Assembly: GCA_031835245.1 (NCBI GenBank)
Contig: JAVKOQ010000174.1
Span: 1 to 64,000, forward strand
Direction: 5' to 3'
DNA from: Balamuthia mandrillaris
Taxonomy: Eukaryota; Discosea; Longamoebia; Balamuthiidae
Length of the DNA stretch: 64,000 nucleotides
Shown here piece by piece: positions 36,203 to 58,610 of this stretch. Each line of letters starts with the position of its first letter. Within the stretch, counting starts at the first letter, position 1. The notes beneath the pieces are model-generated. The model made no database searches. It saw nothing but the letters and a program-made list of their open reading frames with translations, and was not told the origin of the DNA. Both the position numbers and the translations under genes were made by a program.

Positions 36203-39200
36203 ATGACAACGGGGCCGCTAGTGCAGCTTTTATGTGCTTCTTTGATATGTAAGTTTTTTTGTGTTATTGTTTCATTATTATCTTCTTAAAAAAAGTTCCT
36301 TGAGCCAGTTAATGCATTGTTTGTGCTTGCATCAAACAACTATATCACATCATGTGAAATAAAGGTGCCTTTTTTCTGTTGATGGATGTTTTATCTTTTT
36401 AATGGATGATAATCAAATGATCTTTTAGGACTATTTTGAAGCCAATACCACAACTCTTGGAGGCTCTGCTTTTGAGATGAGCACAGCCAACCTTTTTTTT
36501 GAATCTGGGTTGCAATTGTTAAAACCCGATAATTTTTGTCCTTATGTGAACTGTTCAAACCTCAATGTTGCTCCTGGTTGTGTGTGCCCTGATAACTGTG
36601 ATTTTGTAACGGAGTGTGAAGACCTTGATTGGGAAATGTTAGTTGTGGATGATGTACAAGGAAAGAAGGTGTATCATGTAACACCAGATGTTAAACTTTC
36701 TTTTAAGTTTTTCTTTAATATCACAAGTACCTGTCAAGGAATTGTTGTTCGCCTAAAAGCATTGAGTGGGTTCCCTCGTTTAACTATTGATGAATCCAGA
36801 TTTCTCAATAGTGAACACTCACGAACCTATGAAAACTATTTTACAAATGAGATTTATTTATGTCCTTCAACTCATAACACAGGTTGGAAGTTTCTTCAAG
36901 TTTCAGCACAAAAGTATGCTCCTGCTGTGTTTAAATTATCTCTTCATTCATTAGGTAGGTTAATTTTATTTGAGTTGCAATGTTTCTAGTCTCTTTATTA
37001 TTTCAAGACAAATGCACTAACTCTAAGAATAAATCAAGCTCATCTTTCTCCTGTTGACACTTGGCATCACCCAATAGTAACAAGAGATTTTTCTAAAAGG
37101 AGTTTAATAGATAGTAGTGATGTTACCTGCAATGATTCAGAAGTTTTGAAAACATTAAAAGATGAAATTACAACTTTGTTTGCAACCACAACAATAGAAC
37201 CAGGAGTGATGCACACTCTCAACTTTCAAAATGATGAAATTCATCAATTCTTATTTACAATTCCAGATAATATTTCCTGTCCCACAATTTTTTCAATACG
37301 TGCAGAGGCAAGTAAAGGCAATATAGCATTATGGTTAACACGAGATATATCAAACTTTATCAATACTACATACTGTCCATACTTAGAACAAACTGACCCA
37401 GGCTTTCGCAAACCATGGACCACTTTTTTCCCTTTTAGACCTTATCGGTCTCCTGGTAAACCTGAATGGGAAGCTAGAAATAATTTTATTGTCTATGCTG
37501 AATCTTATCAAGAAATGGCAGCAGCATTTTGTGCCCATAATGATGGCCTAGGAAATAACATTTATGGAGCAATATGGGCTGAAAAGCATAATGAAGAACA
37601 AGTTCGTATTATTATGGATTATAATTCAGGTACATTATTTTTTTTTATGTTAAATACAATTCTAATATATAGATAATTCATCTTTAGAACGAGTAAAACT
37701 TGTCCCAATGAATAATATTACACCTTTTGCAGACACCGACTTATTAATTGGTACACATTTATGATAATGACTAGTTACATTATTAACATTGTTTTTTATA
37801 GGTTCATCTGAATTGCAATGTTCTGATTCAGACAACACTGATTATAATTTTCATTGTTTTCATTATAATGATGCTAGACAAAATCCATCTGATACTAATT
37901 GTTTATCATGGAATCCTCGTTTTCCAAACAAAAACAACATTTATCTTGCCTGGCCTATGCCAGCTGAAGTTCTTCGACGAAGCTTTAGTTCACCTGATAG
38001 GCTCCTTTCACGCCAATGGATAGGTTCACATGAAGTAGAAAATAACCTTTACTCAGCAATATGGTTGCAAAAATTTGCATTACCATTTTCACAGTTCACT
38101 TATGAGAATTATGCAGCATCACGGTATTTTAATTTTACACAATGCTCAGTTCACTTTCAAGTAGGAGGATTTTCTAAAATGCTGACATCTAACAATGAGG
38201 TAAGTAGAAAATTGTATTTTTAAAACTAATAATATATTCATTTACTAATATTTTTATCAGATAATTGTTCAATCATTTAGTTTAGCATCTTGTTCTACTC
38301 CAATGACAAATTGTGATTCTAATCACTTAAGTCAAGTAACTACAGAAATGAAATCACTTATAAATGCAATTGAAAATTCAGATTTGTCAATAATAACAAA
38401 TTTACAAGATTATGTATTTTTGGATATGTATAATTTTATTCAAGACTTAACTTTAAAGGTTTGTATTTATCTATTCATTTTATTATTGTATTAACTTTTG
38501 AATATAGGTAGAAATGTTATCTTACTCAACCATATGGCAACAATGTGAACAATATATGGACAACTTTTTTTCTTATTCAACAAATAGTACAATACTTCCT
38601 GAGGAGGTTTATTGTCCATTACAATGGATAACTACTATATTTTCCCCAGACCCAAGGATTGATGATGTCTTAGATCTTGGAATTACATTTAATAATGAGC
38701 TTTCCTTAGTAAACTATATAAGTAATTTTAGTATGGACTTAAGTGATGAACCTTGCTGTTCTTTACGTAAAACTTGGACATCTCATTGTGACTCACAAAT
38801 AATTTACCAGCATGAAGTTTATGAAAAAATAGGCTACTTTGATAACTTGGTAGCTGAAAATTGTTATGAAAAGGTATGTTTTTGTTAAAAAATTTCTATT
38901 AAATAACCAATTTTTATTTGATACAGGGTTGTACATCCTTTTGGTTAAACACTTATAAAGAAAGAAGTGAGGACAGGATTAATTCAAATAATGGTTGTCT
39001 TTTCTTTAATAACACTCAAAATGTACGTAAAATTATTGAAATTTATATAAAAAATTAACTTTCAATTCTAGACTCTTGACTTTTATTATCAAGTAATTGA
39101 ATCATGGAGAAACTGTGAAAACTTAATTTTTGGCAAGTTATATAAAGGTCATAAATGTATAAATGATGAAGATTGTAAACACTTTTGTATCAACAATAGT

Positions 39201-42200
39201 ACTTGTACTTCAAAATGCAATATTGCCACTTTTCAATGTGAAAGTTTAACAGAAAATGCAATAGAACAGTGGATACAATGCTTTATTTCAACTACTCCTG
39301 CATTTGTACAAGGTTTTATTGGTCAATCTCTTAATTTAACAGAAATAACTTTAGAAAACCTTATGGATAAAATATTAAACTCAGCATACTTTAAACAACA
39401 AACATGTTTCACTTATTTGTTTGACTCAGATAAATCTGATTCATTATTTTCCTTAGGTTCTTATTACTCTTTCTCATCTAATTCAAAAAATTGTGTTGAT
39501 GATTGCAATCATTCTACAATAAGATGTACAAGTACTTTTTGTGAAATTCCATTGGAATGTTCAGTACCAAATGAAGAAGATAATGTACAAGGATTTCCAT
39601 CATTATGTGAAAGAACTTGGAATTCAAAAGTGATTCAAACAGATGAATCATGTATTAATTCATCAACAGTTAATTCCTTTTGTAATTGGAACTCCGCTTT
39701 AACAACAGAAACTGCATGTTTACAAGATTGTAATCAAAATGATTGTACCTTTTGTGGTTATTGTTTATCCAATTCTTCAAAATGTTTAGTATATCCAGAT
39801 GCATGGTGCTCAAGCCAAGATTCACATCTGTTTAATATTTGCCTTAACCCATTTGATTATAGTTTACTGTCTCCCACTGAAAAAACAAATTGTGAAGCAT
39901 TAAAACTTTATTCAAATAATGTTGATGAATTATTTTTTACTGAGGATGGAATTACAAAACAAGGCTTATGTATGTTTGACCCACCTCACTATTCAAGGTT
40001 TTCTTGTGAACAATGGAATTGGTTGTTATATAGTAGTTTTAGATGCCATAAATGTAAGGACTGGATAAGATACTATGAAGGTAGAGCACCAGGTACATTG
40101 TTAGCCATTTGTAATGTTAATATAGAACCAGAGAAGGAAGTATGCTTGAATAACTGGCTTTTGGAACAAAAACCAGTAGACACTACTATCCAAAGAGAAT
40201 TTGATCCATTTATCTTTACAAACCAGTCTATATTTCATGTTGAAGAAAGAGACTTTGCAAATTATGCTGAGTGGGAAATCTCTTTTCTATCAAATATCTC
40301 AACACCTTTTGTCTTTGTGAAGACTCCCTTGGGGTGTGTTGTTACGCACCGAGATAAATCTGTTTCAGAAGACTTATGCATGTTAGTACGGCGGGGTATA
40401 ACCAACACAAAACTCGATTCTTATGCAGATGTGCAAATAGAAAGATATTTTGATAGTCTTTCGACAGTTATACCAAATCCTGGTGTTGCCTATCAAATAG
40501 CAGTTGAGGCTGCAGTTCATGAAATCAACACAATGGTGTTAAACACTACATGGGCAATAAACCCTGGTGTGTATTGGGCCTCGAAGTCAATCATAGACCA
40601 GCAAAGTGTTTTAAGAGTTTGTGAATCAAAGACACAGTCCTATACACTGTTTGAGTGGCCAAACATCTACTCTGCAAACATTCGTGTAACTGTTCCAATT
40701 ATACCAAACCAAAGTGAACTAGTTCGGTTTGGAATGTATGCCTCTGACTGTGAAAGCATCAAAATATGGCCTGAAGTTCGGCAGGGATTATGGTTTGATG
40801 ATGCCAGGCCTACTCCGCGAAGAGAATTGAAACGGTGGGTTAATCCTTATACATATGGAGATGTCTTTGACTTTGCCAAGTTCGCACAAACAGTTAAGGA
40901 GTCTATAGCAGAATACCAAAGTTTGGTTTCATCATCACGCTTGATGTGCGAATTTAACCCCTTGATCCGATCTATGGAACGTGTATCATGCCTTTGTAAC
41001 ACAAATGATAAGGACTCCTGCTTCCAGCAAGATGATGGCAGTTTGCCCTTCTTTGTGGACCGACTGTGTCCCAAAGATATCAAAGGCCACTTCAACTCTT
41101 TTTTTGATATTAATTTGGAAGCACCAGAAAACTTTGAATGTGTAGCAACCACTGGGTTCTATTACTATGAAAACCAAATCATGAATTCTGACCCTCCGCT
41201 GGCCACTTTCTTTAATTTAGTAAAGGAACCACATTCTCTTGAAGTGGTCAGAAATAGCAAAGGAGCTATAGTGGGAGAGGTTTTAGGAACTGGCTTCAGG
41301 TTAAACGTGCAAAACAGTCTTGCAACTGAATTGCAGCTTAAGAGTCTTTGCTTTAGCAAATTTGCAAGCTCTCCAGTTAACTCAGAGTATAATATCTTTG
41401 ATATCGGATGGTTAAGTGGAGACACAGTAGTTCCTTTTGGATTGCAACACAATATTTCTTTTAATGCCAATAGTTTGTGCATCAAAGACCATACCATAAG
41501 AATTGAAGCTGGTGCCTTTGATTCTAACCACATTTACTTCCCAATAATACGTTTAGAAAACTACGAAGATACAAGTGATGAACTGTCTTCATTGGAATTA
41601 AGCATGTTTGTTATTACATCCATTGCATTTTTTCTTGTGTTCAGCTACGCCATTTTTCTGGAACTATCCCAATTGTTCACCAAAGCCGCCAGCATTGTTG
41701 CGGTGATTGCAGTTTCGCTTCTTGTGGTTATGGCGTTAGGTTTGACTAAACCCTTTTCTAAGATTTTCCTTTGTGCTAACTTGACAACAAAGCTCGCGGA
41801 TTGTATTTTGCTCTTTTGGCTGGTGAAGTGATCACCGAAGCAGATATTCAAGACTATTTTCTGGTGACACTGCCGTTACTGTTATTCCTGTTTGGTTTTT
41901 CTTTAGTGGCTGCAATGTTGATGTAAGTATAGTCTCAACAAGTGATAGGTTGGTTCACGAATATTAACACCATTGGAAAATACAGCACTGTGTTTGTCTC
42001 TTCTATTGTGCGGGACGCCTGGCCCAACAAACTCATTTATGCTTTGTGGTTTACATTCTGCTTAGTTTTGTTGGTAGTCTTTTGTGTGACTATCATTCTG
42101 TTTGAAACGTTGACGGAGGAGGAAAGTCGCAGTTGTGGAGGCATTGGGGAAGATTCCTCTGATGATGATGCACAACAAGGTGTACAACTCGCCTTTTACA

Positions 42201-42733
42201 TATTGTTATTCATCGTTGCTATTGTGATAGCATTAAGTTTTGGAATTTTTGGAGGGAAGATCTACGTTAAAGTGACCGTCTTGAAACGAAAGACAAAGCG
42301 AAAGGGCCAAAATAAGGCACATAAACTCTTCATTGTGACGGCACTTGGTGTGGTTGTCTTCTTTGCGCAATCCTTATTGTTCTTGTACCTGGCAATTGAT
42401 GGAGACTCTATTGAATCCGACCAGAAGAGCCTTTTTTGCATTATACTATGGTTTATTGAGGTGCTTCCAATAGGAATTATGGCTCAACTATTGTTACCTT
42501 TGCCGTTTAAGAGAACTCTTCTAGGTTCTGCTTCTACTAAAGATACCAGCTCTGGTCCAACAACTTCCTCTCTCAAGAGTACATCACGTTCTTCAAGAAA
42601 TTCATCATCCACGACTTCATTAATGGCTTCTTCAACTACTCAATCTTCATCTTTGTCTCTCAGCCATAGTTCAAGTTTATCAGCAGATGAATCTTCAAGC
42701 TTATCTTCAACTTATTCTTCTAGCTTTGAATAA
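36203..42733 (+). CDS. giant cysteine-rich 7TM receptor-like protein (THH1/TOM1/TOM3-type membrane domain), paralogue A
   Basis: About twelve exons, some 5.8 kb of coding sequence, about 1,900 residues. Exon 1 (ATG 36203) plus a short second exon (about 36312-36365) give a signal peptide (LVQLLCASLIFNALFVLA). The ectodomain, about 1,700 residues, is rich in Cys and N-glycosylation sites and has no domain I recognise. Conserved landmarks shared with paralogue B are EPCC (about 38750), KTPLGCV (about 40320) and CLCN. Seven hydrophobic helices follow from 41600 to 42510. Helix 5, loop and helices 6-7 read GIFGGKIYVKV, a basic KRKTKRKGQ loop, then IEVLPIGIM and LPFKR. These match the GGRLF, ESKGRRKKL and VEVLPS..LPPKR motifs of plant THH1/TOM1/TOM3. 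A Ser/Thr-rich tail of about 75 residues ends at TAA 42731. A receptor role is inference. The 5' part is very AT-rich compared with the 3' part. Confidence 0.8.
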
Positions 42734-43429
42734 ATAAGTTTCTCAGGAGAACACGGGAAGGTTTCATGGCCTTAGCTTCATTATGTGAACATTCGGGGTG
42801 ATGGTTGCTGTTGCTTCCGCCTACAAACAAGGTTTCTCCGTGAAATGGAGGCAGCACTTCCAGCTCCCAGCGGTGAGGAGGTGAAGGTTTGTTGAGAGAA
42901 CCCCCATTAGGGTGGGGTTCTTGCTCTTGGAGGTGATATAAACTCTTTGTAGGTGGTTGTGGTCTCTCTCTCTTTTTTTTTTTGAACATAGCCACCACTG
43001 GTGGTGATTTTTTTCTTTGTGAAAGAACCAACAACCATGATCTTCTAGGGAAGGTTAAGGTTCCATAACCACAAAAGGGGTTTGTGTTTTCATCTTGGCC
43101 ATTGCCTTCTTGAATTATTCCATTATTCCAACTCCAATGGGCTCCTCAATGCATTGCTGCCCCTCCCTGACAGTAATTGCTACCCCTAGGCGTACTGTTG
43201 CTCCTCCTTGACGAGCCGCCGCCCCTCTATGACCTGGTGTTGCCCTACTCCCGTGGGATTGTCTGCACTTTGAAGACAGCGCAAGAGGCTGAAAGTGCCC
43301 AAGAACAACTCCAACTGACCTACAAAGCAGAGCTCCTCCGCCCACAGAAGTGCGAGAGATGGCAGGAATGCCAGTTTCTTTTTTTACAAAGATATAACAC
43401 GTTCTCAACTGCTGTAAGTCTGCCATGAT

Positions 43430-43505
43430 GCTAGCTTTGCACATCATCAGTCAGAAGCATGATCCATGATTTCCTGGCTTCTGGCTGATGATGTGCAAAG
43501 CTAGC
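43430..43505. repeat. 29-bp inverted repeat (stem-loop), possible MITE or fold-back remnant
   Basis: The arms 43430-43458 and 43477-43505 (GCTAGCTTTGCACATCATCA...) are reverse complements with a single mismatch, separated by 18 bases. The surrounding gap 42734-44275 has degenerate GAGCGTGGAA-type and GCTGCCCCTCC-type repeats and a GA run at about 43939-43962. I see no credible gene in it. Confidence 0.85.
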
Positions 43506-44275
43506 CAACATACAGTTTTCGCAACAACACACCACGATTTTTTTCGCTTCGGATTAAGGAGTCGTGCCTGTGTGAATGAAAAAAAAAAGAAAAAGCGTAG
43601 AAGAAGAGCGTGGAAAGTGAGCACGGAAGGTGAGAGTGAAAGATGAGCGTGGAAGTGGAAGATAAGCACAGAAGATGAGCAACGGTGGCGATGGTGGTGA
43701 CGACGTTGATGGTAACAGTGGTGGCGATGAGTGAGATTTGCCACACCCATTCCTCTTGAGTCCAAGGAACTGTCCAAACACCCCTTGCTTTCATCTACGT
43801 TTTCACAATTAACACAAGTGAAGAGAAGAGTACCTGTATTTTAATGGCGATGCAGAAGAGGGTGGATTGGCCATCAAACTTGGCGAGCTGCAGGGGGGAT
43901 ATCGCTGGCCAGCTGCCCCCGACTTTAAGCCCAAACGAAGAGAGAGAGAGAGAGAGAGAGAGAAGGAGAGAATCACGCGAGCAAAACCACCGTTCAAAGC
44001 CCCAGCTACAAACTCCCCTCTTACTGGGGCGTCTTTCTTTGCTACCCTTACCACGCTACCCTTCACTCCCTCTCTTTCCTTTTGTTTTTTTCGCGGAGAA
44101 AGACGAAAAAATCAAGCGCCGCCGGAAGACAAAAAAAAGCGCCCCTTCGAATCTCCGCCATGTCCAACCACCCGCCAGAGGAGGGCAAATCGATCGCTAA
44201 GGAAGAAGCAAAGGGGACGCGGCGTACCCAACTCGGTTCGGTCAAACTCGCTGCGACAGCGAGAAGAAAGGCCAA

Positions 44276-45871
44276 ATGGCAGGAGCGGGAGCCCCCTTCT
44301 CCGACACGACGCTGCTGACCCAGTGCTCCAGGCAGGGCTGCGCCGACCATGACGAGGAGGAGGAGGTGACCATGGACGAACGACCCAACAGGCTGGTCTT
44401 TGCTGTGACGGGCGTGTTGGGCCAGTTCGAGGTGCTTGGGCCGACCAACAAGCACGACCGACGGCTCTTTCAGCAGGGGCAACGAGAAGCCACCGCGCGC
44501 GTCTCGGCCTTTCCTTGCGTGGAGGATGAGCAAGCGCACGAAGGGGCTGTGGACGAGACGACGGGTCTTTTAGCGCCGACCGGCGCGGAGGAAGAGGTGC
44601 TACAGCTGCGGACGCTCAGCTTCAAGAAAAACGTGTTCAGCCATCGCGCTGTGGAGCTTACCCAGTACTTGGCTTACCTTTGCTTCTTCATTTGCGGGGT
44701 ACCTTTTTTTTCTTGCTGCTCTTTTTTTTGTCGGCGTTGTGGCTTCGCTGCCGCTCCATCTCCTCCTCCTTTCTTCTGACACACTGAGCTCTTTTATCGT
44801 CGGTATGAGTAGGTGGGTTACCAGATCCAGTTTTCTTCTATAACGTCGGCGGTGGTTTACTTTAAAGCTCTCTACGGCTCTTCCATTCTTCGTATATTTA
44901 TTGGGGGTATGCCCAAGTTTTCGTTCCCAAGAGTTTATTCTTTTGACTCACTCCTTTTATCTTATGGTGGCGGCCATTTCAGCCTTCAACGCTCCGCTGT
45001 TACCTATTCTTGTGGGACAAATATATTTCGACCACAAGATCGACCAACGGTTTGGTTCGTTGGTGAGTTTTTTCTCTCTTCTCTCTCTCTCTCCTCTCCT
45101 CTCCTCTCCTCTCCTCTCCTCTCCTCTCCCCTCTCCTCCTCTCTCCCTCTCCCTCTCCTCTCCTCTCCCCTCTCCCTCTCTCCTCTCCTCTCCTCTCCTC
45201 TCCTCTCCTCTCTCTTCTCTGCCATTCTTGTGCCATTCTCACGATTCGCATAAACATGCAAAAATGATCACAGAATACGTTTAGAATACGGTTATTGATA
45301 ACGTTAGTTATTTGTACTGCCATACTATTTGCCATTCCATGGGCGGCCACGCCCCTTGGTCTTGTTGTCAGGTACCCTCATGCCTCCTCTCCTTCTTGCT
45401 CTGCTCGTTCATGTTCTCCTTCTTCCTTCTCTTCGTCATCTCCTTGTTGGTCTTTTTGTCTGTCCAAATAACCTGCTATGCAGCCTTGTAGCAGTGATGG
45501 GTCTATTCAATGGCATTGCGAATGGAGCATATTTTGCTCTTGTTTCTGTATTTCCAACCAAGACTCCTGTATCTCTCCTCTCTCTTTCTTTATGCTGTAT
45601 CCTTCACTTGGCTGACAACACGCGCCCGCACATATTAGATTTTCTGGTCATTAGGCCAGCGAACGTGTACCGTCCTTATTTTAGGAACGCAGTTGTTTAT
45701 CGTGGACCCTTCTAGCACCGATCAGAAGGACAACGACATCTTTTTCATAATTTGTGCCTCCGTTTCCGCAGTTGGCATTCTCTCTTTCCTCATTCTCATT
45801 CACCTCACAGCCACTCGTTTTCTCCTAACGGCACGAGATCGGTGCGTGTTCCTTTATTTTTTCTTGTTCTT

Positions 45872-45908
<37 letters not shown>

Positions 45909-46933
45909 ACACACAATTGCAATACATACTGCTTATCTTGACTTAATAGTCGAACGTTACTCTGCAAGCAACGACAAGCACTGCAACACAAATCAGCCAA
46001 GATGATTCAACAGTCAGCCAACGTACAACGCGTCAATTCAGATGGAGCAAAGGACGCGGAGTCGCAGTCACCATTCTCCTCCCTCAAGCTCTCAGAAAAG
46101 GTGACCACTGTCAGCCTGTTGCGATCTGTTTGGCTGACAGTCTTGTCTGGCATGCTTATCCTCTTTAGCGACGTTGGTGTGATTACCGCTCTTACGTACA
46201 TGCCTTCATCTATGGGTTAGTACTTGTTCCTTTTTCTATATTTGTAATTCTTTCTTGCTCTTTGTCGTTCTCCTTTACCTCTTTTTAGCCTTATATCAAC
46301 TTGTTCTTTTTTTAAAAAAATAATAATTTGCTCGCTTTCTTTTTTACTTTGTAGGAAAGAAAGACATAGCGTTGATATTACTATACATCAACTACTTTGG
46401 TGACTTTATAGGCCGACAAGCAACCCTCATTCCCAAGCGCATCGTGTGGAACCAAATCTCGTTGTTGGTGGCATCTTGTATCCGCGTCTTGTTTGTGCCG
46501 TGGTCCGTCTTTTACATCATGACCGATTACTTTGTCAATGATTGGTTCTTGTTTGTGATGATGGCTCTCTATGCCATCATGGGTGGTTACATTAGGTTTG
46601 TTTTCTCCTCGCTTATCTTTTTCTCGTTCTCTCATCGTTCTATGCTTTCTCGTCTCGTCTCGTCTCGTCTCGTCTCTCTTCCTCTCTCTTTCGTTTGCCT
46701 CTTGCATTGTTTCTCCGTGTTAAAGGATAATCTTTTGGGTCACTATCTCTCTCTATGTTTTCTTACAAACAAAAACAAAACAAAAACCAAAAAGAACGTT
46801 GGTGTTCATCATTGGTCCACAAGTGGTATCTCTGGATAGACGGCCACAGGTCAGTCTGTGGTTAAACGTTGGCGTGGCGGCAGGAACATACCTCGGCATT
46901 GCTTATTCTTTCCTTGGCGGTTTGTTCCTGTAG
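44276..46933 (+). CDS. equilibrative nucleoside transporter (ENT/SLC29) family protein
   Basis: The gene begins at ATG 44276 and ends at TAG 46931-46933 with about nine exons. The first exon is a cytoplasmic N-terminus followed by TM1 (LTQYLAYLCFFICG). Next come GYQIQFSSITSAVVYFKALYG, SFYLMVAAISAFNAPLLP and a reconstructed TM exon near 45277-45371. VAVMGLFNGIANGAYFALVSVFP corresponds to the ENT TM5 region, and WSLGQRTCTVLILG follows. A cytoplasmic loop lies in 45950-46090. The later part has INYFGDFIGRQATL (the ENT TM8 D/R motif) and a final exon ending LNVGVAAGTYLGIAYSFLGG. ENTs carry nucleosides down or along proton gradients, fitting purine salvage. The small intron near 44890-44931 is doubtful. 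One intron is a TCTCC repeat. Confidence 0.82.
45083..45223. repeat. (TCTCC)n satellite in an ENT intron
   Basis: About 140 bases of TCTCC, CCCT and CT repeats start some 20 bases after the GTGAGT donor at 45064. It is the same repeat type as in the kinesin intron, again pyrimidine-only on the sense strand. Confidence 0.95.
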
Positions 46934-47033
46934 TTGTTTCCATTTCTCAACTACGTTTGTGGTTTGTTATTTCAGTTGTTGTTTTTCCCTATTCTGGTTT
47001 CCATTCACTCCACCTGTTTATTTGTAGCTGGCA

Positions 47034-48038
47034 TTAGAGTACGCAAGAGAGAACTCGAGAGAGACAGAGAGACAGAGAGAGAACGAGAGAGAGACAGAGA
47101 CAAAGAAAGGGAAAAAAAAAAGGAAAGAGGAAGGGAAGCTGATACCGAAGCGAGGAGGGCAGAGGAGGAGGTTCCAGGGAGGAAGTCATGTTTGTTTCCG
47201 ATGAGGGCTTTGCTGCAGCACCTGCCTGAAGAGGAGGGCTACCCAAAATAAGGTGTCGCGTTTGAAGGGAGAGCATGATGTTGGGGTCATCCCGTATGAG
47301 CCGCGCGATGATCTCAGGAACAGATTGACCGGGCGAGAGCGTCTGAAGGAGCGCTCTGGCCTGGGCCGCAAAGGACACGTCTGGCGGTTGCGTCCTGGCC
47401 ATCTGCGCGAGGGTGTGCCAAGGCAGGTTAGCCACTCTCTCCCGCAGCTGCTGCACCTCCTCCACCTTCTCCATCTCCAGCCGCCGCGCTCTCTCGATCT
47501 CCTCGTCCACTCTTCTGCGCTTGTCCCTGGCGTGCTTGGCTTTGCTGGCGTCCGCGCAGCGCTCGCAGCCCTCTTCGCAGCCGTGCTCCTCCCTGAGCTC
47601 GTGGTCGATCAGCCCCGTCTTTTGCGAGAAGCGACGCGAGCAGCCGTTGGCGTGGCGGCAGAGGTAGTCGGCGTTGGCCCCTTTGGCCGGTTTGCCTTTG
47701 CGCCGACCCTCCCAGCGCTTGCACGCGGCGCAGGAGGAGGGGCAGCAGTTTTCGTGGTGGCGCAGCCCTTGCTCGTGCCGCACCGTGGAGCGGGCGCTGT
47801 GGTAGCGCTTGCGTTTGCCCGTCGCGCTTTCCGTGTTGGTGCACCAGTCGTGCGTGCATGAGTGCAGCTGTTGTTGCGGTCCTCTTTTCTCTTCTGCCTC
47901 TGCCTCTTCTTCTCCTTCTTCTTCCGCCTCTTCTTCTCCTCTGCTTAACGCGGGGTGAAGAAGGTCGCCCGTCGCCCTCCTCGCCCTCCTCCTCGCCTCC
48001 GCCGCCTCCCCTTCGACGGCTCTTCTTCTTCTTTCCAT
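47034..48038 (-). CDS. putative Cys/His zinc-finger protein with coiled coil
   Basis: A single open frame of 334 residues starts at ATG 48038. It opens with an Arg/Glu-rich stretch. Then come clustered Cys and His residues, including a C2H2-like finger (CRHANGCSRRFSQKTGLIDH with a further H), CCPSSCAAC and CEEGCERC. A helical, charged region with coiled-coil character follows (KRRRVDEEIERARRLEMEKVEEV in outline). The last 40 residues turn into a hydrophobic Leu/Ser/Cys tail that is simply the translation of a GAGA microsatellite at about 47040-47110. That tail may be real or may lie in an unspliced intron or 3' UTR. The high GC content differs from its neighbours. I do not recognise the family; a DNA- or RNA-binding role is a guess. 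Confidence 0.5.
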   Translation of the reverse strand: MERRRRAVEGEAAEARRRARRATGDLLHPALSRGEEEAEEEGEEEAEAEEKRGPQQQLHSCTHDWCTNTESATGKRKRYHSARSTVRHEQGLRHHENCCPSSCAACKRWEGRRKGKPAKGANADYLCRHANGCSRRFSQKTGLIDHELREEHGCEEGCERCADASKAKHARDKRRRVDEEIERARRLEMEKVEEVQQLRERVANLPWHTLAQMARTQPPDVSFAAQARALLQTLSPGQSVPEIIARLIRDDPNIMLSLQTRHLILGSPPLQAGAAAKPSSETNMTSSLEPPPLPSSLRYQLPFLFPFFFPFLCLCLSLVLSLSLCLSRVLSCVL

Positions 48039-48281
48039 TTTCTTCTTTTCTGTTTTTTTCTTTTCTGTTTTTGTCGGTCGACATAAATGACGTCACCGGA
48101 AACTTCCCCCTTGTAAAACCCACAGAAAATTCACGTGCAGCAGGTTGAAAAAAGTGAGAAACGCATCAGGAAAAAAAAAAAACAAACAAACAAACAACGG
48201 ATAACGAACAAAGCAAAATCGAAACAGACTGCAAAACAGCGGAGTGGACACTAAGGCTTGCAAATATACGCACCTGCAAAG

Positions 48282-48861
48282 ATGACTGCTCCCCCTTCCT
48301 CATTGTTCGGCGTCACCAAGGCCTACGCCATTTCGATGGCGGTGCTTCCTCTGAGCGCCGTGCTTGCCTACTTGCCCGACGTCTACGGCAACGTGGTCTA
48401 CCTCACTGAGTGGGTCAACTACGACAGCCTTCAACCCAGGAACAACATGCTCCTTTTGGAAAGCTCCAACGCACCTGCTCCAGTTAAACAAGCTTATGGG
48501 TATGTGCTCTCTTTTCTCTTTCCGTTTGTTCTTCACTCATACGTGCTTCTTTCCTCTTTCTCCAACACAAAGGCGCTGCAAAGCATGCCACCAAAACAAC
48601 CTGGAGACCTTCCCTTTCTTTGCTTCAGGCCTTCTGGCCTCCCTCTTCTTAGGCGTGGACAGCAGGACGACCGACACGTTGTCGGCAGGGTGGTTGGTCT
48701 CCCGCCTTGTCTACACTTTGAGCTACGTAAAGGGCACCTCCACTACCGCTGCCACCGTGCGGAACCTAAGTTGGACGGCCAGCATGGGCTGCGCTGCTAC
48801 CCTTATGCTGTTGGCCTTGCGAAGCGCGCTAGCCGTGGTAGACAGGCCCTCTCGTTACTAA
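48282..48861 (+). CDS. MAPEG-family membrane protein
   Basis: Two exons (48282-48499, 48573-48861) join in phase to 168 residues. Helix 1 is AISMAVLPLSAVLAYLPDVYG. The second exon opens with RCKACHQNNLETFPFFASGLLASLF, matching the MAPEG motif RxxxAHxNxxExxPxFxxxxL. It continues with VDSRTTDTLSAGWLVSRLVYTLSYV and a last helix. The family (microsomal glutathione transferases, leukotriene C4 synthase and relatives) is embedded in the ER or other membranes and uses glutathione. The short length is normal for the family. The substrate cannot be told. The gene sits 243 bp from the zinc-finger ORF, in divergent orientation. Confidence 0.82.
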
Positions 48862-48906
48862 ACATTGTAACTGAAAATCCAGCCAGGGAACTTAAAATAT
48901 TTAGAG

Positions 48907-49009
48907 CTTGCCTCTCCTCTCTCTCCTCTCTCTCCTCTCTCTCTTCTCTCCTCTCTCTTCTCTCCTCTCTCTTCTCTCTCTCTCTCTCTCTCTCTCTATC
49001 TCCCTCTCT
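48907..49009. repeat. CT-rich microsatellite downstream of the MAPEG gene
   Basis: About 100 bases of CTCTC, CTCTT and pure CT repeats start 46 bases after the MAPEG stop codon, on its sense strand. An AATAAA follows at about 49027-49032. The rest of the gap to 49309 holds the promoter of the next gene and nothing I recognise. Confidence 0.9.
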
Positions 49010-49309
49010 CCTAAACGTCATGAACAAAATAAAAAGCGAAATAGAAAGGTTCACATACTGATACGCATTCAGTCCGAGAAGTCAAATATTAACGACTAAA
49101 TTGCTTTACCTTTATTGTTTTGAAGGAAAGGAACGAAAAAAAATATTCTGTTTGATGAACCAGAAGGCTGAGGAGAGAGGGAGGGGATAAACGGGTTGAA
49201 AAGGTGCGCCAGCTGTTTTTGGTAAATTAATTGATAAAATAGAAGTATGTGTTTGGTTTTCCCCAGGGCTTGCATTGTTCTTGTTGAGTAGTTAGCGTTG
49301 TTGCATGAA

Positions 49310-52300
49310 ATGAAACACATCTCTTTGTTATTTGCCGTTCTTTCGCTCTTTACTATAACCGGTCGGTACACCTTTTAAGATCTCTGCTCTCCGTTTTGTT
49401 GCTTTCTGTCCTTTGTGTCAAAGTCTTTTTGGGCTTCCTCTTCTTCTCTTGCTTTTATTCTTGTATGCTAAAACACCAGAATTTTTCGACCTAAAATAGC
49501 CCGACCACTTCCCGATGTTACATCTGTGACAGTTGAGGTGAGTTGCAACGTTTCTCTTCCTCTTGCATGACTAGCACGTGTAACTAACCTCATCGACAGA
49601 CATTCACAGCTGAGCTATTGAATATGTCATTTGCAGTCACCTCAGCCAGTGTAAACTTCGATGAAGAACTGCATTTGGTATCAGCAAAGCATTTCTGTCC
49701 AGACTTTGACTGTATGAAGACCCAAAGTTGGCCTTCAGAAGATATTGGATGTCTGTGTAATTATGCCAACCATGATCGATGTGGAACCCAGATCTCACCC
49801 TCCTGCGAAGAGTATTGTGGTTTAGCCCCTTGTGCAGATACTGAAGTATGGGAGGAGCTGGAACTTCCCCATATTCATGGAACTGGGAACGGAAAAGCGT
49901 CATATGCCGGTAGGGTTACACTAGGCGATAAGAAATATTATCGCTATTTTCATAACTCTTCGTGTGCAATCATACGGATCAGTCTTCAGGCTGTAAGTGG
50001 AAGACCTTTTCTTGTGGTTAGCGATCAACCAGATTTCTCTTGTCAAGAAAGATACTCGAGTCCTTACCTCAATAACTTTGAGCTATGTCCTCCTCTTCAC
50101 AGTCTCGGGACTTGGTACTTTTATGTGGCCGGCAACTTAAAGACTACCGCCTCTTTTGTTCTTGAAATTGAGGAGCTTGGTGAGAAACTGTTCGTTTGTA
50201 AAACTTATCTTCAAATTTCTCACTTTTGCTGTCTCAAAAGGTGCACCCGAAGTTCCTCGAAATTGGTCGTGGACCCCACATACTTTTGCCCACAGCAACT
50301 GTTTCTCAACAAAGTTGATGCCAACGAAGGAGAGTTCATCCCCACCCATTGAACAAATGCGACTGATTGCGCCTGGATTTCCTGAATCCTATACATTTAA
50401 CCTCGACTTCTACTCCAACTTTTCTTATCACTTTCAATATGTGGTCCCGGACGAAGATCAAACTTGCCCTACAATCATATCATTGAAGGTAGGACCAGTA
50501 CCAACTTCTTCTGTCAAAGTGTGGTTGTCAAGAAAACGGAAACACCCTCTTCCAGAGAGAACAACTTTCTTTGAAGATATACCTGAGGTTGCAGTTGATG
50601 CTCTACGAAATAGCCCATTCTGGAAAGTTGATGATAGTTTTCTTTTAATGGATGAATCCTACCAAGAGGTAACCCTTTCCTTCTGCAACAATGATGATAA
50701 CCTGGGTTATACGATCTTCGGTTCGCTTTGGGCCAGCCCAGATTCAACAGGTTCTATTACGGTGGTAATGGATTCCCGCAAAGGTACAGGCACTGTTTGT
50801 TATTAGTTTAGTCATTACGCTTACGAGTTTTTCTGCACAGAGAGATTCACAACAATCCCTTTTTCTTCTTTGGAACCCTACAAACACATGAGATTGCTGG
50901 AAGGTATGAAAACCTGGAGTAATATCAATATTATTTTTTAGTAAGTCTTTTGTTTCTTCATCCAGGAACCTCATACCTTCACTGTGAAAACTTCGATTTC
51001 CACTGTTTTAATTTTCACTGGGAATATTTTACAATTGAAGAGTCTGGTTGTCGAGTATGGAACCCCAGGATTCCCTCTGAAAATGACCGATATTTATTTT
51101 GGCCAGTTCCATCATATGCATTACAAACAGTCCTGTTTCCAACTGAAAGGCTGCTTAACCGACGAAATGTTGGTCCTCCCATTCCAATCCGAAATCAAAC
51201 CTTTTCATCAATCATTTTACACGGTTGGACAGCTCCAGTGTCTGCGTATCCATATAAGAGCTTGTTTCTTGAACAAGACAAACTGAACCAATGTTCAATT
51301 CATTTCAATATTGGTGGGTTTAGCAGAGTCGTTGATGTTGCCTTAAAGGTACTGTCTGTTCTATTGTTCTGTTTTTCTGTATTCATTCTAAGCATTTCCT
51401 GTAATCCCAAAGCCAATAACTAGGAGTGCAGTGCCTCTGCAAAACGCATTACTGCCTTCAATAAAATGCAATGGACATGAGTTTGCAAAGGTGCACAAGG
51501 AAATGCACAACCTGTTCAAGGAAATGGAATCAGCAACAGATGCTGGTTATTTAAATGACCTACGTTATCAAGTGGAGATGCTTGCCTTAACAGATATCTT
51601 CAGGGTATGTCAAACATGGGCAGATGGAATGCACTCAATCAAGGTGGTTAACCGAACAAGAGAATTTTTTTGTGGTGTTGATTATCCGCTAGAGAATATT
51701 TTACCCAGTGGCAATGGAGCCCACTTCAACAACTTTACTGCTTCTTTGAACAAATTGCAAAATGAACCTTGTTGCTATTTAGATGCTAACTGGCAGTACT
51801 GTTGCCAACCAAAAACGGTCATTTATCCTTATGAAGAACTGGGGATTGTTGATGATGCAGTTATCACAGCAGAATGTAGAACACCGGTACTATAAAGCTC
51901 ATAGTCACATAAAACTTCTCTTTTAACAGTCATCATAGGAATGTGCAAACATCATTGCTGAAGAATATGGTGACCTACGAAACCAAGCGTCAAACGAAGC
52001 TACTGGATGTGCAAATATTCTTGCAAATATCAATGATGTACATAAGTGCTGTTATATTCTTCTTAAACATATACTAACTAGTTAAAATAGGAAGCGATTT
52101 TCGAAGAAACAGTCAAAGATACACTTCGGATATGTGACAAAAAGGTGTATGGGGAGGATTATTCCGGGATATATTGCGTAGGTGATCATGACTGCCCACA
52201 AGATATCAGTTGTGGAACCAACCATAAGTGTGCGTTGAATTCAACACGGGCAGAATGGCACTGGATTGAATGTTTTTTGAGCATTACCGACTCGTTTGTG

Positions 52301-55300
52301 CTACATCACCTGAAGCAAAAGTTTCAGTTTGATGGAACTGTGGATGATTTCATGCAACTTGACTTCTTTTTCCGTGACGACTGCCGCTCTCCTGTTTCAG
52401 CACTTCCATCCACAGAACGTTCATATATTGGTGCCCATAGTTATTGGCAGTATAAGAAAGTTGATGAAAGCTGTGAAGATGATTGTGTGAGTGATCCGGT
52501 ATGTCTTTCTCCTGCGTGTGCTGCGGACATTGAGTGCTTGATACCAGGAGAAACGCAATCACCTGGTTGCATAAGGAATTGGATATTTGTGGATTCAACC
52601 CCCGATACATGTCAATCTATTGGATTTTGCAACAAAGCTTCTGGGATTAGAGATCCTGAGAGCTGTAAAGGACCCTTCTGTGGTGTCTGCGACGAGGAAG
52701 AGAATGTGTGTAGCGCAATAACCGGCCGCAATTTTATAACATGCGATGCAACTCCCGTTTGTATTCAGCCCAATGGCCATGTCTCTGCGGCACAGGTATC
52801 AATCCCTTTGTTTATTACCTTAACTTCAGGCGATGGTTTTTATTGTGCTGAAATAGGATGAGTGTGGTTTGTGTTTACATCCATGGACGTATGAAGAACT
52901 GCCACTACCGAAGGAAGCCTGTCTTGCAAGTGGTGCGCTATTATCATTTTGAATTCTCCTATTTACTACTAACGACGAAACTAGTCCACTGTAATGACGA
53001 ACAATGGTTTCCACCTGAATATTATGCTTCCAATGATGATTACTTGCAAACTGAGGGATTTTGTTATTATAACCTTCCTCCGTATTCAAAACTGTCTTGT
53101 TTTGCATCACGATCAAACAGTACCTTTACTACTACAGCTCTCCAATCCAGGGAGTTGGACTATGTGTTCACCAATTTTATCAAAACTCCCCTTGGATGTG
53201 TGATACTTGCGGAGGACAACACCGGTCAAAACACCTGTGGATGGGAATGCTGTGATGACATTGCGTCGGGAGGCTCAAGGTCAGGATATGAACTGGATGA
53301 CGTAAGATTAGGAGTGTTGCGCAGAGACGTGTCTGTGATGACCAAACGAGACCCTGCCGTACAGAGTTGTGCAAGTTTTTACAATCAGATTCCACAAGTG
53401 TGCGAAGAAAAGAGCAACTCGTTTTTTCTATTTGGGTGGCCCACTTCTCTAGGAAATGAACTCCTTGTTCAAACACCAAAAAATGAAGATGAATGCACCT
53501 GTTCGGGAGGAAGTATGAAACCTCTTTTCAAAGATAAACCAGGGTTATGGCGCAATGGATCCCTCAACACCCCTTCCATGACGAACAGTAAATGGGTTTC
53601 TTATTATTGGGGAAGATCTCTTGACTACACAAAAATAGAGCGAGAAGTCAGCGAGGCCACAACGTTGTTCCATAGTTTATTGAAACAATCACAGTTGCTT
53701 TGTCGCTTCAGTCGTCTTTCTAGCGCTATGCAAACACTTTCATGTGATTGTGCCTCCTCCGAGGATGGATGTTATATGAAGGACGATCTGGTGCTGCCTC
53801 TGGCTACCAGGCGATTGTGCACAGCAGTTCCACTTTCTGTAGCAGTTTACCCATTTACCGCATTTTTTCCAGAAAACACTTTGGATGGGGACAAAGGCCA
53901 GTGTGTGGATTTCAAAGTGCTGTTTAGAACGGCCTTTCAGTTCCGAGCACTAAAACAAAAAAAACTTTCCGCAACATTCTCATACCTAGAACCTGATGAT
54001 ACAAATGAATGGGAGGTTGTTTACAATGAGAACGGCTCAGTAATTGGGCAAATTGTTGGAGATGGCATAGAGCTTCAGGTGCCATTACTGTTCCATAATT
54101 TCGAGCTTTGTCTGGCCATGAAGGGAAATCTATATGGAAATGCGCCAGCTAAATACACACTGTTCTCAATAGCCAAAGTAATAGATAACAGATTGGTCCC
54201 TTTACAACAAGAAACGTTTCTGCGAGATATTGGCCAAAATCGCCACATATGCACTTTGATTACCTTGGATGAAGGTTCTCACGCGCTTTTGCCAATTGTA
54301 AGCGTGCCCGATTGGCAAACTGAGTCTGGTGACTCGTTGACGAACTCTGAAATTGGTGTGCTGGGTTTCGTAGGAGCAGCATACGTTTTCCTGTTCTTTT
54401 TCGCGTTGATTACTCTTATCACAAGGCTCCTTTTCAATGTTCACGTCACCCTTTCTATCAGAACGTTTGTCATCCTTATCGCGGTTTTCGCTTTATGTAA
54501 GTCTTACCATTTTTACTTACCTTCTTGGTACTAATGGCTATCTGTCAGTACGAGGACTTTACTTCATACTTCTTGCTGGTGAGATTGTTGATGACTCAGG
54601 GGTTGCTGACTACATTTTGGTTGAGCTCCCTACGTTGGTTTTTTTTATTGCATTTGCTCTTATCTGTGCCATTTTCATGTACATCAGCCCTCCAATTATA
54701 TTATAACTTTATTATTCTAATTAGAATGATGTTTATCTAAAACAGTTCCATAATTTCAGCGGCTGTGTTTGGAGACGTGGAAAAATCTTGTATTGTGTTT
54801 TATGGGTGGTTAATTCTTTGTGTGCTAGCATTATTCCTGTTCGTTTTTATTGTTCTTCTGTATGAACTTCTTCCTGAAGAAGATACTGAAAAATGTGGAG
54901 GAAGAGACTATGATGAACCTCCTGAGCATCAGCCACGAGATTATGTTAACATTTTCTATAAAGCCCTTTATATGACAACAGCAATTGCGGTTGCCATTGG
55001 CTTCTTATTGTTTGGAGGCAAAATCTATGCTAAAGTGGTAACTCTTAGAAGAAAAACCAGGAGGCAAGGGCAACGCAAAGGACTCAGAGTATTTATTGTG
55101 ACCATCATTGGCATCTACGCATTTTTAGGCCAATCTACTTTTCTGCTGGCCTTAGCAATAACTGAATGGACCCATGTTATTGCTGGCAGTTTAATATTAA
55201 TCATTATCGAAGTGATTCCAGCGGCTAGCATGGTGTTCATCTTAGTTCCTATATATCACAGACGCATTCAACCAAAGGTTTCAACTACCTCTTCTACTAG

Positions 55301-55406
55301 TTCTGCTGATCCTTCAACTAAAAGCTCCATATCAACGGCTTCTACTTCCACACAACCATCACAACGAACTATGTCTTTCAGTAGCAGTTCAAGTGGACAA
55401 ATGTAA
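49310..55406 (+). CDS. giant cysteine-rich 7TM receptor-like protein (THH1/TOM1/TOM3-type membrane domain), paralogue B
   Basis: Start ATG 49310 gives a signal peptide (MKHISLLFAVLSLFTITG). The donor at about 49353 joins in phase to a short exon ending in TVE at about 49537, then to 49601 onward. The ectodomain of well over 1,500 residues follows paralogue A exon by exon and shares Cys spacing: NEPCC (about 51770), CVGDHDC (about 52180), KTPLGCV (about 53190) and CDCASSEDGC (about 53740). The membrane region spans 54340-55255, with introns at matching places in both genes. VAIGFLLFGGKIY, the basic RRKTRRQGQRK loop and IEVIPAASM match THH1/TOM1/TOM3. A Ser/Thr-rich tail ends at TAA 55404. TOM1/3 proteins are plant tonoplast 7TM proteins; the fusion to a huge secreted ectodomain is not something I know. 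Ligand and function are unknown. Confidence 0.8.
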
Positions 55407-55478
55407 AAAAAATGTAGGTTTTAGTTTAGCTTTCTTCATTGTGCACTTCTCTTAGCTTCTCGCCTCTCCTTTCTTCTG

Positions 55479-55580
55479 CCTCTCCTCTCCTCTCCTCTCC
55501 TCTCCTCTCCTCTCCTCTCCTCTCCTCTCCTCTCCTCTCCTCTCCTCTCCTCTCCTCTCCTCTCCTCTCCTCTCCCTCTC
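55479..55580. repeat. (TCTCC)n satellite after paralogue B
   Basis: About 100 bases of uninterrupted TCTCC lie some 75 bases after the stop codon of paralogue B, pyrimidine-rich on its sense strand. Confidence 0.95.
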
Positions 55581-55940
55581 TCCTCTCCTCTGCCTCTCCA
55601 CTCCTCTGCCTCTCCTCCCACCACCCCCTCTCCTTGTCGGATGTGTTAAGGTAGGCAGTGAGAAACAGTGAGTTGAAGAAGAAAAAAAATTTGTCTTGGC
55701 AGAAGTTAAGAGCTTTCAGTTTTACAGAATAAATCTCTTAACTTTAGCATTGTAGAGAAATCTCAACACTTTTCACTTCTCCTCGCCATTCTGCTGCATT
55801 TCCTCCTGCCAATTGCAAGTGTTGCGTGGAGAGGAGTGCAAAACAAAAGCTGATTTTATTGAAAAGATAGCAGAACAATATCATATACAAACCACCTCAG
55901 GTATGCAAGGCCACACCCACACATTGAATTGGACCAAATT

Positions 55941-57239
55941 TTATCTGGCGTGTATCGGAATATTATGTGGAACAACATAGTCAAATACTAGTTTCATATC
56001 ACTAAAGCTGAAAATCCTTTCCCTGGGAAGAGTTTTCGTTTGTAATCGCACTCTGAAGACATCACTATTCTCTCCGCTGAACAAGCTTTGAATGTCATTT
56101 ACGTAGTTAGACATGTTCCAGGCATATTGACCCTTCGCTTCGGACAGTGGGAGCTGAATCCAGCTTGAATTACCTATGGCTCCAACGTAAATTTTCCAAG
56201 TAAATGGACCAACAAACGAAAAACAATTGATGTGCAGTTGCAGGTTCGTGATGCCTGCTGAACGCACATAAGCTGGGAGTTCGAAATTGATGTTTGAATG
56301 GTGGGTAAAGCCAGCAGCATCTGGAGTAGAAGGAGCCAAAGACACCCAATTATTCAAGGTTCCAAAACGATCGCCTACAACAGCTCTGATGCTGTTGGGA
56401 AAAACTGTCACAGATAAAGGAGCAATCTGGGTGTAGCGGACTGGAGAGTCGTAGTTATAGTAGGCGTAGTCCTCCCCATAATCCACGATCGCATGAGACT
56501 GGTTAATCGCTGCATATATATACTCAAACCCGTCGTCAATAACTCCATGACGGAATGTAACACCTGCAAAGTTACCATCCTCATCCATCTGCACCATGGG
56601 TCCACCGCTAGGCCAGTTGTTGTCTTGAGACATCACATAAGTGAATTCTCCATATGAAAAAATGAAGAAGAACATATCTCGATCCGGATTGGCCGTTATT
56701 TGCGCATTTGGCAACATAGAATCAAGGAAGAGCATCAAACTAGCTCCCCCGTCATCAGTACCATAGTGCGTGTCCCACTTGAGCTCATATTCAACAATTC
56801 CCCTAGGCTTGTAACTAACGGTAGCCGCAAAACTTGCTCCTCCATACGAATATGTTACAGTCTCCAGATCAAATTCGATGGAGCCAAGGCCTCCTGCAAA
56901 GGTGCCCTCGTATTCAATCCCAGCAAACTGACTCCTAAAGATACGAACGAGGGGGCTTGGACCAGTAGAGTCGTCTAAAGTTATCTCCTCGTCTCCTAAT
57001 TCTAAATGCAGCTCAACAAAACCAAAGTTTATGGCACCCGGGTCGGACTCCAACTCGAAGTCTCCTGCGCTTCCTGGAGAAGGAAGAGGCCAGTTTTCCG
57101 TTTCTAGTCGAACAAATCCGATGGCGCTGGTGGAAGGCACTGAGCAACCCACCTCAAACGAAAAGTCATATATTATCTCAAAAGATAGTACTAGTTGCGA
57201 TAAAGCCAGTATTGTACAGATAAGCGCCGCAGTTTTCAT
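55941..57239 (-). CDS. orphan secreted beta-rich protein
   Basis: One uninterrupted exon of 432 residues starts at ATG 57239 and ends at 55941. The start is a clear signal peptide (MKTAALICTILALSQLVLS). The mature protein begins FEIIYDFSFEVGC and shows alternating hydrophobic residues, many Gly, Asp, Tyr and Phe, N-glycosylation sites and only a few cysteines. This suggests a beta-sandwich or beta-propeller fold. I do not recognise a family. The frame stays open upstream to 57599, but the signal peptide decides the start. It contrasts with its neighbours by having no intron. Confidence 0.75.
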   Translation of the reverse strand: MKTAALICTILALSQLVLSFEIIYDFSFEVGCSVPSTSAIGFVRLETENWPLPSPGSAGDFELESDPGAINFGFVELHLELGDEEITLDDSTGPSPLVRIFRSQFAGIEYEGTFAGGLGSIEFDLETVTYSYGGASFAATVSYKPRGIVEYELKWDTHYGTDDGGASLMLFLDSMLPNAQITANPDRDMFFFIFSYGEFTYVMSQDNNWPSGGPMVQMDEDGNFAGVTFRHGVIDDGFEYIYAAINQSHAIVDYGEDYAYYNYDSPVRYTQIAPLSVTVFPNSIRAVVGDRFGTLNNWVSLAPSTPDAAGFTHHSNINFELPAYVRSAGITNLQLHINCFSFVGPFTWKIYVGAIGNSSWIQLPLSEAKGQYAWNMSNYVNDIQSLFSGENSDVFRVRLQTKTLPRERIFSFSDMKLVFDYVVPHNIPIHAR

Positions 57240-57744
57240 CTTTAGTGTTTGTTGTTGTTTTAAAATGATGTTGTTAACATGCCACCAACTATCTTCTTTT
57301 ATAGTGGGGCAATCGATATGAATAGGAAAGGACTCGGTGCGAAAATAGGAAAGACATTGAGGGATTATCAATGCATGTCCCTCAAAGGAAGAATGATTGA
57401 TTCGCAATGGACATTGATTGCCATGCCCACGAAGCGAAAAGGAAAGGAAATGATAGGAACCGCAAAGCCATTCAGTCAGAGACCCAGAAAAGGAGACCTT
57501 CTCTCCAAAGGCGCAAAGCAATTCAATCGCCAGCCTGAGCGAAAAAGGCAATTTCGTGAAGCGAGAGGAGAAAAAGAGTACAAAGGAAGAAAGAAGCAAA
57601 CAGAATGAAAAAAAATAAAGACCAATGACATGGCGCTGTGTTTTAAAAAAAAAACAACACCCTTCGGGGAGTTGTGAATCACTTTATTCATTAATGCTTT
57701 CCAACAGAAAACTCAGTAAAGAGAGATCGTTATAGATGAGCTAG

Positions 57745-58392
57745 TCACTGCGAAAGGTTGGATTCAGCGAACTTCCAGTTCACGAGGTTCCACCAGGCGT
57801 TGATGTAGTTGGGACGAGCGTTCCTGTAGTCGATGTAGTAAGCGTGCTCCCACACATCGCAGGTCAAGATAGGGCGCAAGTTATCTGTAAGAAGTAGAGT
57901 ATGTCCGTTAGTGTGATTAAAAGAAAAAAAATAAAAGAGACAAAAGTTACCAGTAATAGGATTGCCAGCGTCGTGAGTGCCGATTACCTTGAGCTTGCCC
58001 TCATCGTCCTGAACGAGCCAGGCCCAGCCAGATCCAAAGTGGCCACCAGCCACGTCGCTGAACTCCTTTTTGAAGGAGTTAAAGTCACCAAAGTTCTTGA
58101 CGATCGCTTCAGCGATGGCGCCAGTGGGCTCACCGCCTCCCTCAGGGCTCATGGAGTTCCAGTAGAAGGTGTGGTTCCAGATCTGGGCGGCGTTGTTGAA
58201 CAGGCCACCCTGCGAGCCCCTGATGAGCTCCTCCAAGGACTTGTCAGCGTTGGGGGTGTCCTTAACGAGGCCGTTGAGCTTGGCCACGTAGCCAGCGTGG
58301 TGCTTGCCGTAGTGGAACTCAAGGGTCTCCTCAGAGATGTGGGGCGCCAAAGCGTCCTTGGAGTAGGGCAATTCGGGGAGCGTGAAAGACAT
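57745..58392 (-). CDS. iron-type superoxide dismutase
   Basis: Two exons (57951-58392, 57745-57884) join in phase to 193 residues, the normal length. Metal ligands are His27, His74, Asp157 and His161 (DVWEHAYYIDY). Gln70 in FNNAAQIWNH sits where Fe-SODs place the active-site glutamine, and ALAPHIS and AWLVQ are further Fe-type features. No transit or signal peptide precedes MSFTLPELPYSK, so it is predicted cytosolic. It turns superoxide into hydrogen peroxide and oxygen. It faces the Tap42 gene, and the two starts are 218 bases apart. Confidence 0.95.
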   Translation of the reverse strand: MSFTLPELPYSKDALAPHISEETLEFHYGKHHAGYVAKLNGLVKDTPNADKSLEELIRGSQGGLFNNAAQIWNHTFYWNSMSPEGGGEPTGAIAEAIVKNFGDFNSFKKEFSDVAGGHFGSGWAWLVQDDEGKLKVIGTHDAGNPITGNFCLFYFFSFNHTNGHTLLLTDNLRPILTCDVWEHAYYIDYRNARPNYINAWWNLVNWKFAESNLSQ

Positions 58393-58610
58393 TGTGGTTG
58401 TTTGGTTCTTTCTATGTTGGACGGAAGAAAAAGGGGTGAAACGCTCGACCGATAACGAAAAAAAAGCGCTCCCTCGGTCAGCCCTTTTTTCTCCGATTGG
58501 TTATAAAATTCTCCGAGGACAACACATTTTTTTTTCCGCATGAGGGGCCGCCAAATTTCCTCAGAACGAAATTTCCAACACCAAGCGATAAAAGAGAGAA
58601 AAAGATCAAG
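58393..58610. promoter_or_regulatory. bidirectional promoter region between SOD and Tap42
   Basis: The 218 bases between the divergent start codons contain an inverted CCAAT box (GATTGG, 58495-58500) next to TATAAAA (58502-58508), about 105 bases before the Tap42 ATG and about the same distance from the SOD ATG. The elements are seen in the sequence; their use is inferred. Confidence 0.45.

Follow-up and report, generated by a model that had tools for sequence, protein, structure and literature searches.

Giant cysteine-rich ectodomains predicted on a THH1/TOM1/TOM3-type seven-helix domain in Balamuthia mandrillaris

The known plant members of the THH1/TOM1/TOM3 family (PF06454) are short proteins without a large ectodomain, and GPR137 and TOM1 probably belong to one superfamily; how, then, should we read genes in which seven helices of this type appear to follow well over a thousand extracellular residues? 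We addressed this question in a stretch of 64,000 nucleotides from the free-living amoeba Balamuthia mandrillaris (Amoebozoa, Discosea; assembly GCA_031835245.1, contig JAVKOQ010000174.1, positions 1 to 64,000; hereafter the window), in which two such paralogues, genes A and B, occupy positions 36,203 to 55,406, together with a copy of this region on contig C1 and two further paralogues, genes C and D. On the basis of the predicted exons, each of the four is almost certainly one polypeptide consisting of a Cys-rich ectodomain, seven PF06454 helices and a cytoplasmic tail. To our favoured explanation as a whole, which runs from this architecture through to small-GTPase signalling, we assign a rough probability of 0.45.

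Ectodomain and helices in one gene

The features of genes A and B, with positions counted in the window, are as follows.

36203..42733, + strand: gene A, 11 exons, 1,938 aa; hand-spliced GT-AG model, kept in the C1 copy
Gene A exons, + strand: 36203-36248, 36442-36954, 37039-37629, 37688-37750, 37802-38199, 38261-38458, 38508-38873, 38927-39022, 39072-41739, 41793-41922, 41986-42733 (stop included)
36203..41597, + strand: gene A ectodomain, introns included, residues 1 to about 1,599
39072..41739, + strand: gene A exon 9, uninterrupted, 889 codons, last 842 ectodomain residues and transmembrane helices 1 and 2 (TM1-TM2)
41598..42499, + strand: gene A seven-helix domain, introns 41740-41792 (phase 1) and 41923-41985 (phase 2)
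42500..42733, + strand: gene A Ser/Thr-rich cytoplasmic tail, 77 aa
49310..55406, + strand: gene B, 12 exons, 1,755 aa; hand-spliced GT-AG model
Gene B exons, + strand: 49310-49361, 49610-50179, 50241-50783, 50841-50903, 50966-51348, 51413-51886, 51939-52037, 52091-52795, 52857-52932, 52985-54496, 54549-54678, 54746-55406 (stop included)
49840..50178, + strand: gene B N-terminal domain, modelled beta-sandwich of PPC/collagen-binding/SID-1/GOLD type
52985..54496, + strand: gene B exon 10, a single exon with the last 456 ectodomain residues and TM1-TM2
54352..55250, + strand: gene B seven-helix domain, PF06454 35.3 bits, introns 54497-54548 (phase 1) and 54679-54745 (phase 2)
55251..55406, + strand: gene B Ser/Thr-rich cytoplasmic tail, 51 aa

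The architecture depends above all on the exon encoding TM1-TM2, which in all four paralogues also carries the end of the ectodomain (842 residues in A, 456 in B, 170 in C and 80 in D). Because the same uninterrupted exon holds both, we regard ectodomain and helices as parts of a single gene, as a sequence-only reading of this locus had proposed. The GenBank protein QOT17_015212 (1,446 aa) is gene B without its N-terminus, misread near exons 4-5 and TM1-TM2; from 51413 onward its ectodomain exons, and the membrane exons to which they are connected, are those of our hand-spliced model. QOT17_000101 (1,110 aa) is the C1 copy of gene B, again without the N-terminus and with several helices skipped.

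The positions C1:234,894-265,699 form a collinear copy of window positions 30000-60000. Outside the genes, two 4-kb probes are 91% and 88% identical to it; identity is about 92% along the gene stretches and falls in some spacers. The copy represents the other haplotype or else a homeologue, and because the region is present twice in the assembly, in collinear versions that differ by about 10%, gene counts in the Balamuthia genome need care. In comparison with this copy, dN/dS (the ratio of nonsynonymous to synonymous substitution rates) is 0.182 over 1,937 codons for gene A and 0.153 over 1,755 codons for gene B. When examined by part, the values are 0.193 (ectodomain), 0.047 (membrane part) and 0.171 (tail) for A, the only one of genes A, B and C whose membrane part is more constrained than its ectodomain, and 0.146, 0.170 and 0.186, respectively, for B. 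Gaps are restricted to 3 columns in the 11 exons of A, all within exon 9, and 3 columns in the 12 exons of B, all within exon 10; the GT/AG sites are kept in 10/10 introns of A and 11/11 of B, with intron lengths differing in 8/10 and 6/11. Since dN/dS is low, exon gaps are few and splice sites are kept in the copies, the models of A and B reflect more than chance. The least certain parts of the gene A model are exon 1 and its acceptor. For gene B, an alternative start via an exon at 49480-49537 was ruled out, as the C1 copy shows a one-base gap and stops there, and the start is 49310-49361 joined to 49610.

Gene C is present on C207 and C7 (12 exons, 1,712 aa; dN/dS 0.148 between both loci) with its splice sites kept and, like A and B, is under purifying selection; gene D is on C14 (17 exons, 1,736 aa; start uncertain). 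Identities over aligned columns are 29% for A-B, 31% for B-C, 25% for A-C, 18% for A-D, 22% for B-D and 20% for C-D, and 37 cysteine columns are common to all four. A profile of A+B+C matches D with 194 bits in total, namely 177.5 over the juxtamembrane and membrane parts and 32 in a Cys-rich part; elsewhere it gives at most 3.6 bits, and the highest score among 20 shuffled D sequences was 3.3 bits. An hhalign comparison of this profile with D gave 97.3%. For the N-terminal domains of A-C, the same profile found no counterpart in D.

An extracellular part of more than 1,500 residues had been claimed for both genes of the window; A reaches this length (about 1,571 residues) and B falls short of it (about 1,414), the range across the four paralogues being 1,275 to 1,571. 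Over residues 1-1,571, the ectodomain of A has about 71 Cys and 22 N-glycosylation sequons, and the ectodomain cysteines are presumably disulphide-bonded. A signal peptide, likewise claimed for both, is weak in A, where no 19-residue hydropathy window exceeds 1.6 across the whole ectodomain part. Other elements of the earlier description have held up: each protein shows seven separate C-terminal hydropathy peaks, merged by hand from 9-12 overlapping windows >1.5 per protein, and the tails of A (77 residues) and B (51 residues) contain 57% and 51% Ser+Thr. The loop charges (K+R 10 in the third intracellular loop of both A and B; D+E 9 in A and 10 in B in the second extracellular loop) place the N-terminus outside.

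Kinship of the membrane part with PF06454

The curated cut-off of PF06454 is 25 bits, and B (35.3 bits, profile positions 19-265), C (27.5) and D (53.9) exceed it, so that these three very probably belong to the family; gene A is taken up below. In a PF06454 search of the whole genome (64.8 Mb, 775 contigs), we have found four exon-level matches: C100, gene B, the C1 copy of gene B, and C46, one piece of which scores 30.6 bits. C100 encodes a short protein (62.9 bits) with 28 residues before TM1 in the model and an in-frame stop just upstream of the ATG.

A further line of evidence comes from the introns of the membrane part. Their matching places and phases in A and B, noticed at the outset, extend to C, D and C100: a phase 1 intron follows TM2, immediately ahead of a conserved Arg, and a phase 2 intron follows TM3, the latter offset by one alignment column in D and C100. 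These shared places and phases point to common descent of the giant and short PF06454 genes, independently of model scores. PDB sequence searches gave no match for the membrane part of B or for the A+B+C membrane profile; NCBIfam gave just sub-threshold scores, for two of three pieces, and PADLOC gave no match for one piece of gene B. Because of the large ectodomain, we regard A-D as a variant and not as typical PF06454 members.

Ectodomain fold and surroundings

Up to an E of 1, Pfam searches with the ectodomains of A and B gave no family. The N-terminal domain of B was modelled (mc4f79bdbe7c6, mean pLDDT, the predicted local distance difference test, of 55, built on a two-sequence alignment), and over residues 77-189 of the modelled exon the ten-residue pLDDT means range from 47 to 85. 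Its structural matches are of PPC/collagen-binding/SID-1/GOLD type, and comparably good ones come from several unrelated beta-sandwich families; sequence searches gave no support for a SID-1/PPC-like fold in this domain. Identity with PPC itself (PF04151) was rejected, as none of the five rows of the N-terminal alignment gave a Pfam family at E up to 10, and a tandem repeat of two N-terminal segments was likewise discarded (hhalign 0.1%). Beyond this domain no fold was recognised in the ectodomain; the AlphaFold model of the exon 10 and juxtamembrane part of B is unusable (mean pLDDT 29), and PDB sequence searches gave two weak matches for the A+B+C ectodomain profile (E 0.2 and 0.48) and none for the N-terminal profile. 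C27, C184 and C368, weak protein-level leads, were dropped as relatives, since none matched the A-D profiles at E up to 0.1.

The coding sequence of gene A is AT-rich mid-gene (window 37000-40200), the GC content at third codon positions being 0.12 at codons 801-1000, compared with 0.33-0.40 across nine 200-codon bins in gene B. Between A and B, at 44200-49060 (+), lies an apparent multi-exon membrane-protein gene; three open frames from this interval matched nothing in Pfam up to an E of 0.1. Downstream of B are a 580-codon open frame at 55944-57683 (-), whose only match, GH114_assoc, stays at 15 bits under the cut-off of 22, and a Fe/Mn superoxide dismutase gene at 57748-58500 (-; PF02777 122 bits, PF00081 108.6 bits). 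CTCTC-type tandem repeats are found at 55440-55620, just behind gene B, and at 45059-45220. The neighbours of gene C at L025:782-1861 (-) and L025:8348-8854 (+) are Cys-rich, look secreted, and resemble the Frizzled cysteine-rich domain (PF01392), with scores of 14.5 and 23.7 bits, both below the cut-off of 32.1; similar open reading frames flank the C7 copy of gene C.

Possible role and comparison with known systems

Under our favoured explanation, the ectodomain would face the outside or the phagosome/lysosome lumen and bind a ligand, prey surface or matrix, and the seven-helix part, like its short relatives, would relay this to an ARL8- or Rag-type small GTPase bound to the membrane. The output of the small GTPase could then set endolysosome traffic or nutrient signalling, with the basic third inner loop and the tail as candidate contact and regulatory surfaces. 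Both TOM1 and GPR137B are reported to work with small GTPases on organelle membranes: plant TOM1 occurs in complex with ARL8 (PMC3234234) and GPR137B binds Rag GTPases on lysosomes (PMC7429791). By analogy with these proteins, an ectodomain sensor steering a small GTPase may be tentatively proposed. That A-D constitute a separate class of large-ectodomain seven-helix receptor on a TOM1/GPR137 chassis, reporting a surface or lumenal ligand directly to the small GTPases in charge of lysosome positioning and growth control, is somewhat unlikely; if it were true, the family would have begun as, or be able to become, a true ligand receptor.

Several points weigh against this explanation. The kinship that the sequence-only reading claimed for both genes emerged for B (and for C and D) in the PF06454 search, and gene A alone gives no match in the Pfam scan; we nevertheless consider A a probable member, because its helices are 33% identical to those of B and it aligns with B, C and D over the full length. 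The hhalign comparison of the A+B+C profile with the single short protein C100 fails (1.6%). The helices of B and C are no more constrained than the ectodomain (dN/dS 0.170 vs 0.146 in B; 0.159 vs 0.150 in C). The suggested link to small GTPases is extrapolated from short relatives whose identity to A-D is low. Finally, protein searches for relatives outside Balamuthia, whose reach covers close relatives only, returned two proteins, both from Balamuthia; because these searches rest on exact five-residue words (at most 100 each, with the reach judged to end at roughly half identity), distant relatives would be missed.

Among the alternatives, an adhesion or uptake (phagocytic) receptor, whose ectodomain grips prey, matrix or polymer and whose helices mainly serve as an anchor reaching the traffic machinery, appears rather unlikely. 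Less likely still is a true G protein-coupled receptor (GPCR), in which the ectodomain binds a surface ligand, the seven-transmembrane (7TM) part activates a heterotrimeric G protein, and a phosphorylated Ser/Thr tail desensitises it. The seven helices, the outside N-terminus and the Ser/Thr tail of A, B and C are what such a receptor would have, and the best Pfam scores of A, although sub-threshold, are with 7tm_1 (20.2 and 20.8 bits, cut-off 30.5) and Srv (20.9, cut-off 21); furthermore, a recent survey of choanoflagellate GPCRs (PMC12716839) includes GPR137 among GPCRs, along with a family whose structural link to THH1/TOM1/TOM3 is weak. However, when eight candidates were tested for binding to the Galpha protein GPA1, plant TOM1 alone failed to bind (PMC2530877), and the tail of D (171 residues, only 18% Ser/Thr) is not Ser/Thr-rich. 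In addition, the Pfam scans list no classical GPCR family model for B, C and D, and over all four paralogues no GPCR or other 7TM family passes its cut-off except PF06454 itself. A transporter-like protein, in which a SID-1-type ectodomain would sit on seven helices acting as channel or carrier, is much less likely than these. Although the GenBank models are incomplete and differ at TM1, the supposition that neighbouring ectodomain and membrane-protein genes were read as one is the least credible of all and is rejected, because in each of the four paralogues a single exon encodes both ectodomain sequence and TM1-TM2, and the copies of A, B and C preserve the entire reading frame.

The combination of a giant ectodomain with PF06454 looks undescribed and, judged from searches that reach close relatives only, has so far been seen only in Balamuthia. 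The earlier proposal of an undescribed class is consistent with our searches of the open-licence literature, which, with most subscription journals outside its coverage, gave no account of any PF06454 protein bearing a large ectodomain; papers naming PF06454, DUF1084 or IPR009457 there are plant papers by title. The main text of an amoebozoan GPCR survey contains no word starting with TOM or GPR137. RLPredictiOme lists two 'DUF1084-RLK' among receptor-like kinases classified by ectodomain type, an architecture different from that of A-D. As Balamuthia is a human pathogen whose surface proteins are, in our judgement, little known, a plain annotation of these genes should be useful.

Adhesion GPCRs likewise carry a very large ectodomain on seven helices, whereas the helices of A-D are of PF06454 type. 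The adhesion-GPCR reading is disfavoured, as no GAIN/GPS was found: Pfam scans of the whole ectodomains of A and B gave no match, though a distant fold could escape them, and the motif H-[LIMV]-[ST] is absent from the 90 residues before TM1 in all four paralogues. In the GOST proteins (GPR107/108, TMEM87, TMEM145, GPR180), GOLD stands directly before the 7TM part, according to the choanoflagellate survey (PMC12716839), whereas in B more than 1,200 residues separate the modelled N-terminal domain from the helices. SID-1/SIDT1 and the bacterial PPC/collagen-binding domains may resemble the N-terminal domain of B in modelled fold, without a sequence match, and the remaining protein is unlike. The animal lysosomal protein GPR137/GPR137B is also a GPCR-like multi-pass membrane protein, but, unlike A-D, GPR137 has no domain outside its 7TM part according to that survey (PMC12716839).

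The closest comparison is with the short THH1/TOM1/TOM3 proteins of Balamuthia itself: C100 and C46 share the seven-helix PF06454 domain with A-D, and C100 also has the same two membrane introns, but it carries 28 residues before TM1 where A-D carry a Cys-rich ectodomain. THH1/TOM1/TOM3 and GPR137 are orphans, and what, if anything, they sense is obscure because they have almost nothing outside the membrane. Their giant-ectodomain relatives could therefore provide a handle on this question, since such an ectodomain could be produced by itself and serve as bait for a ligand.

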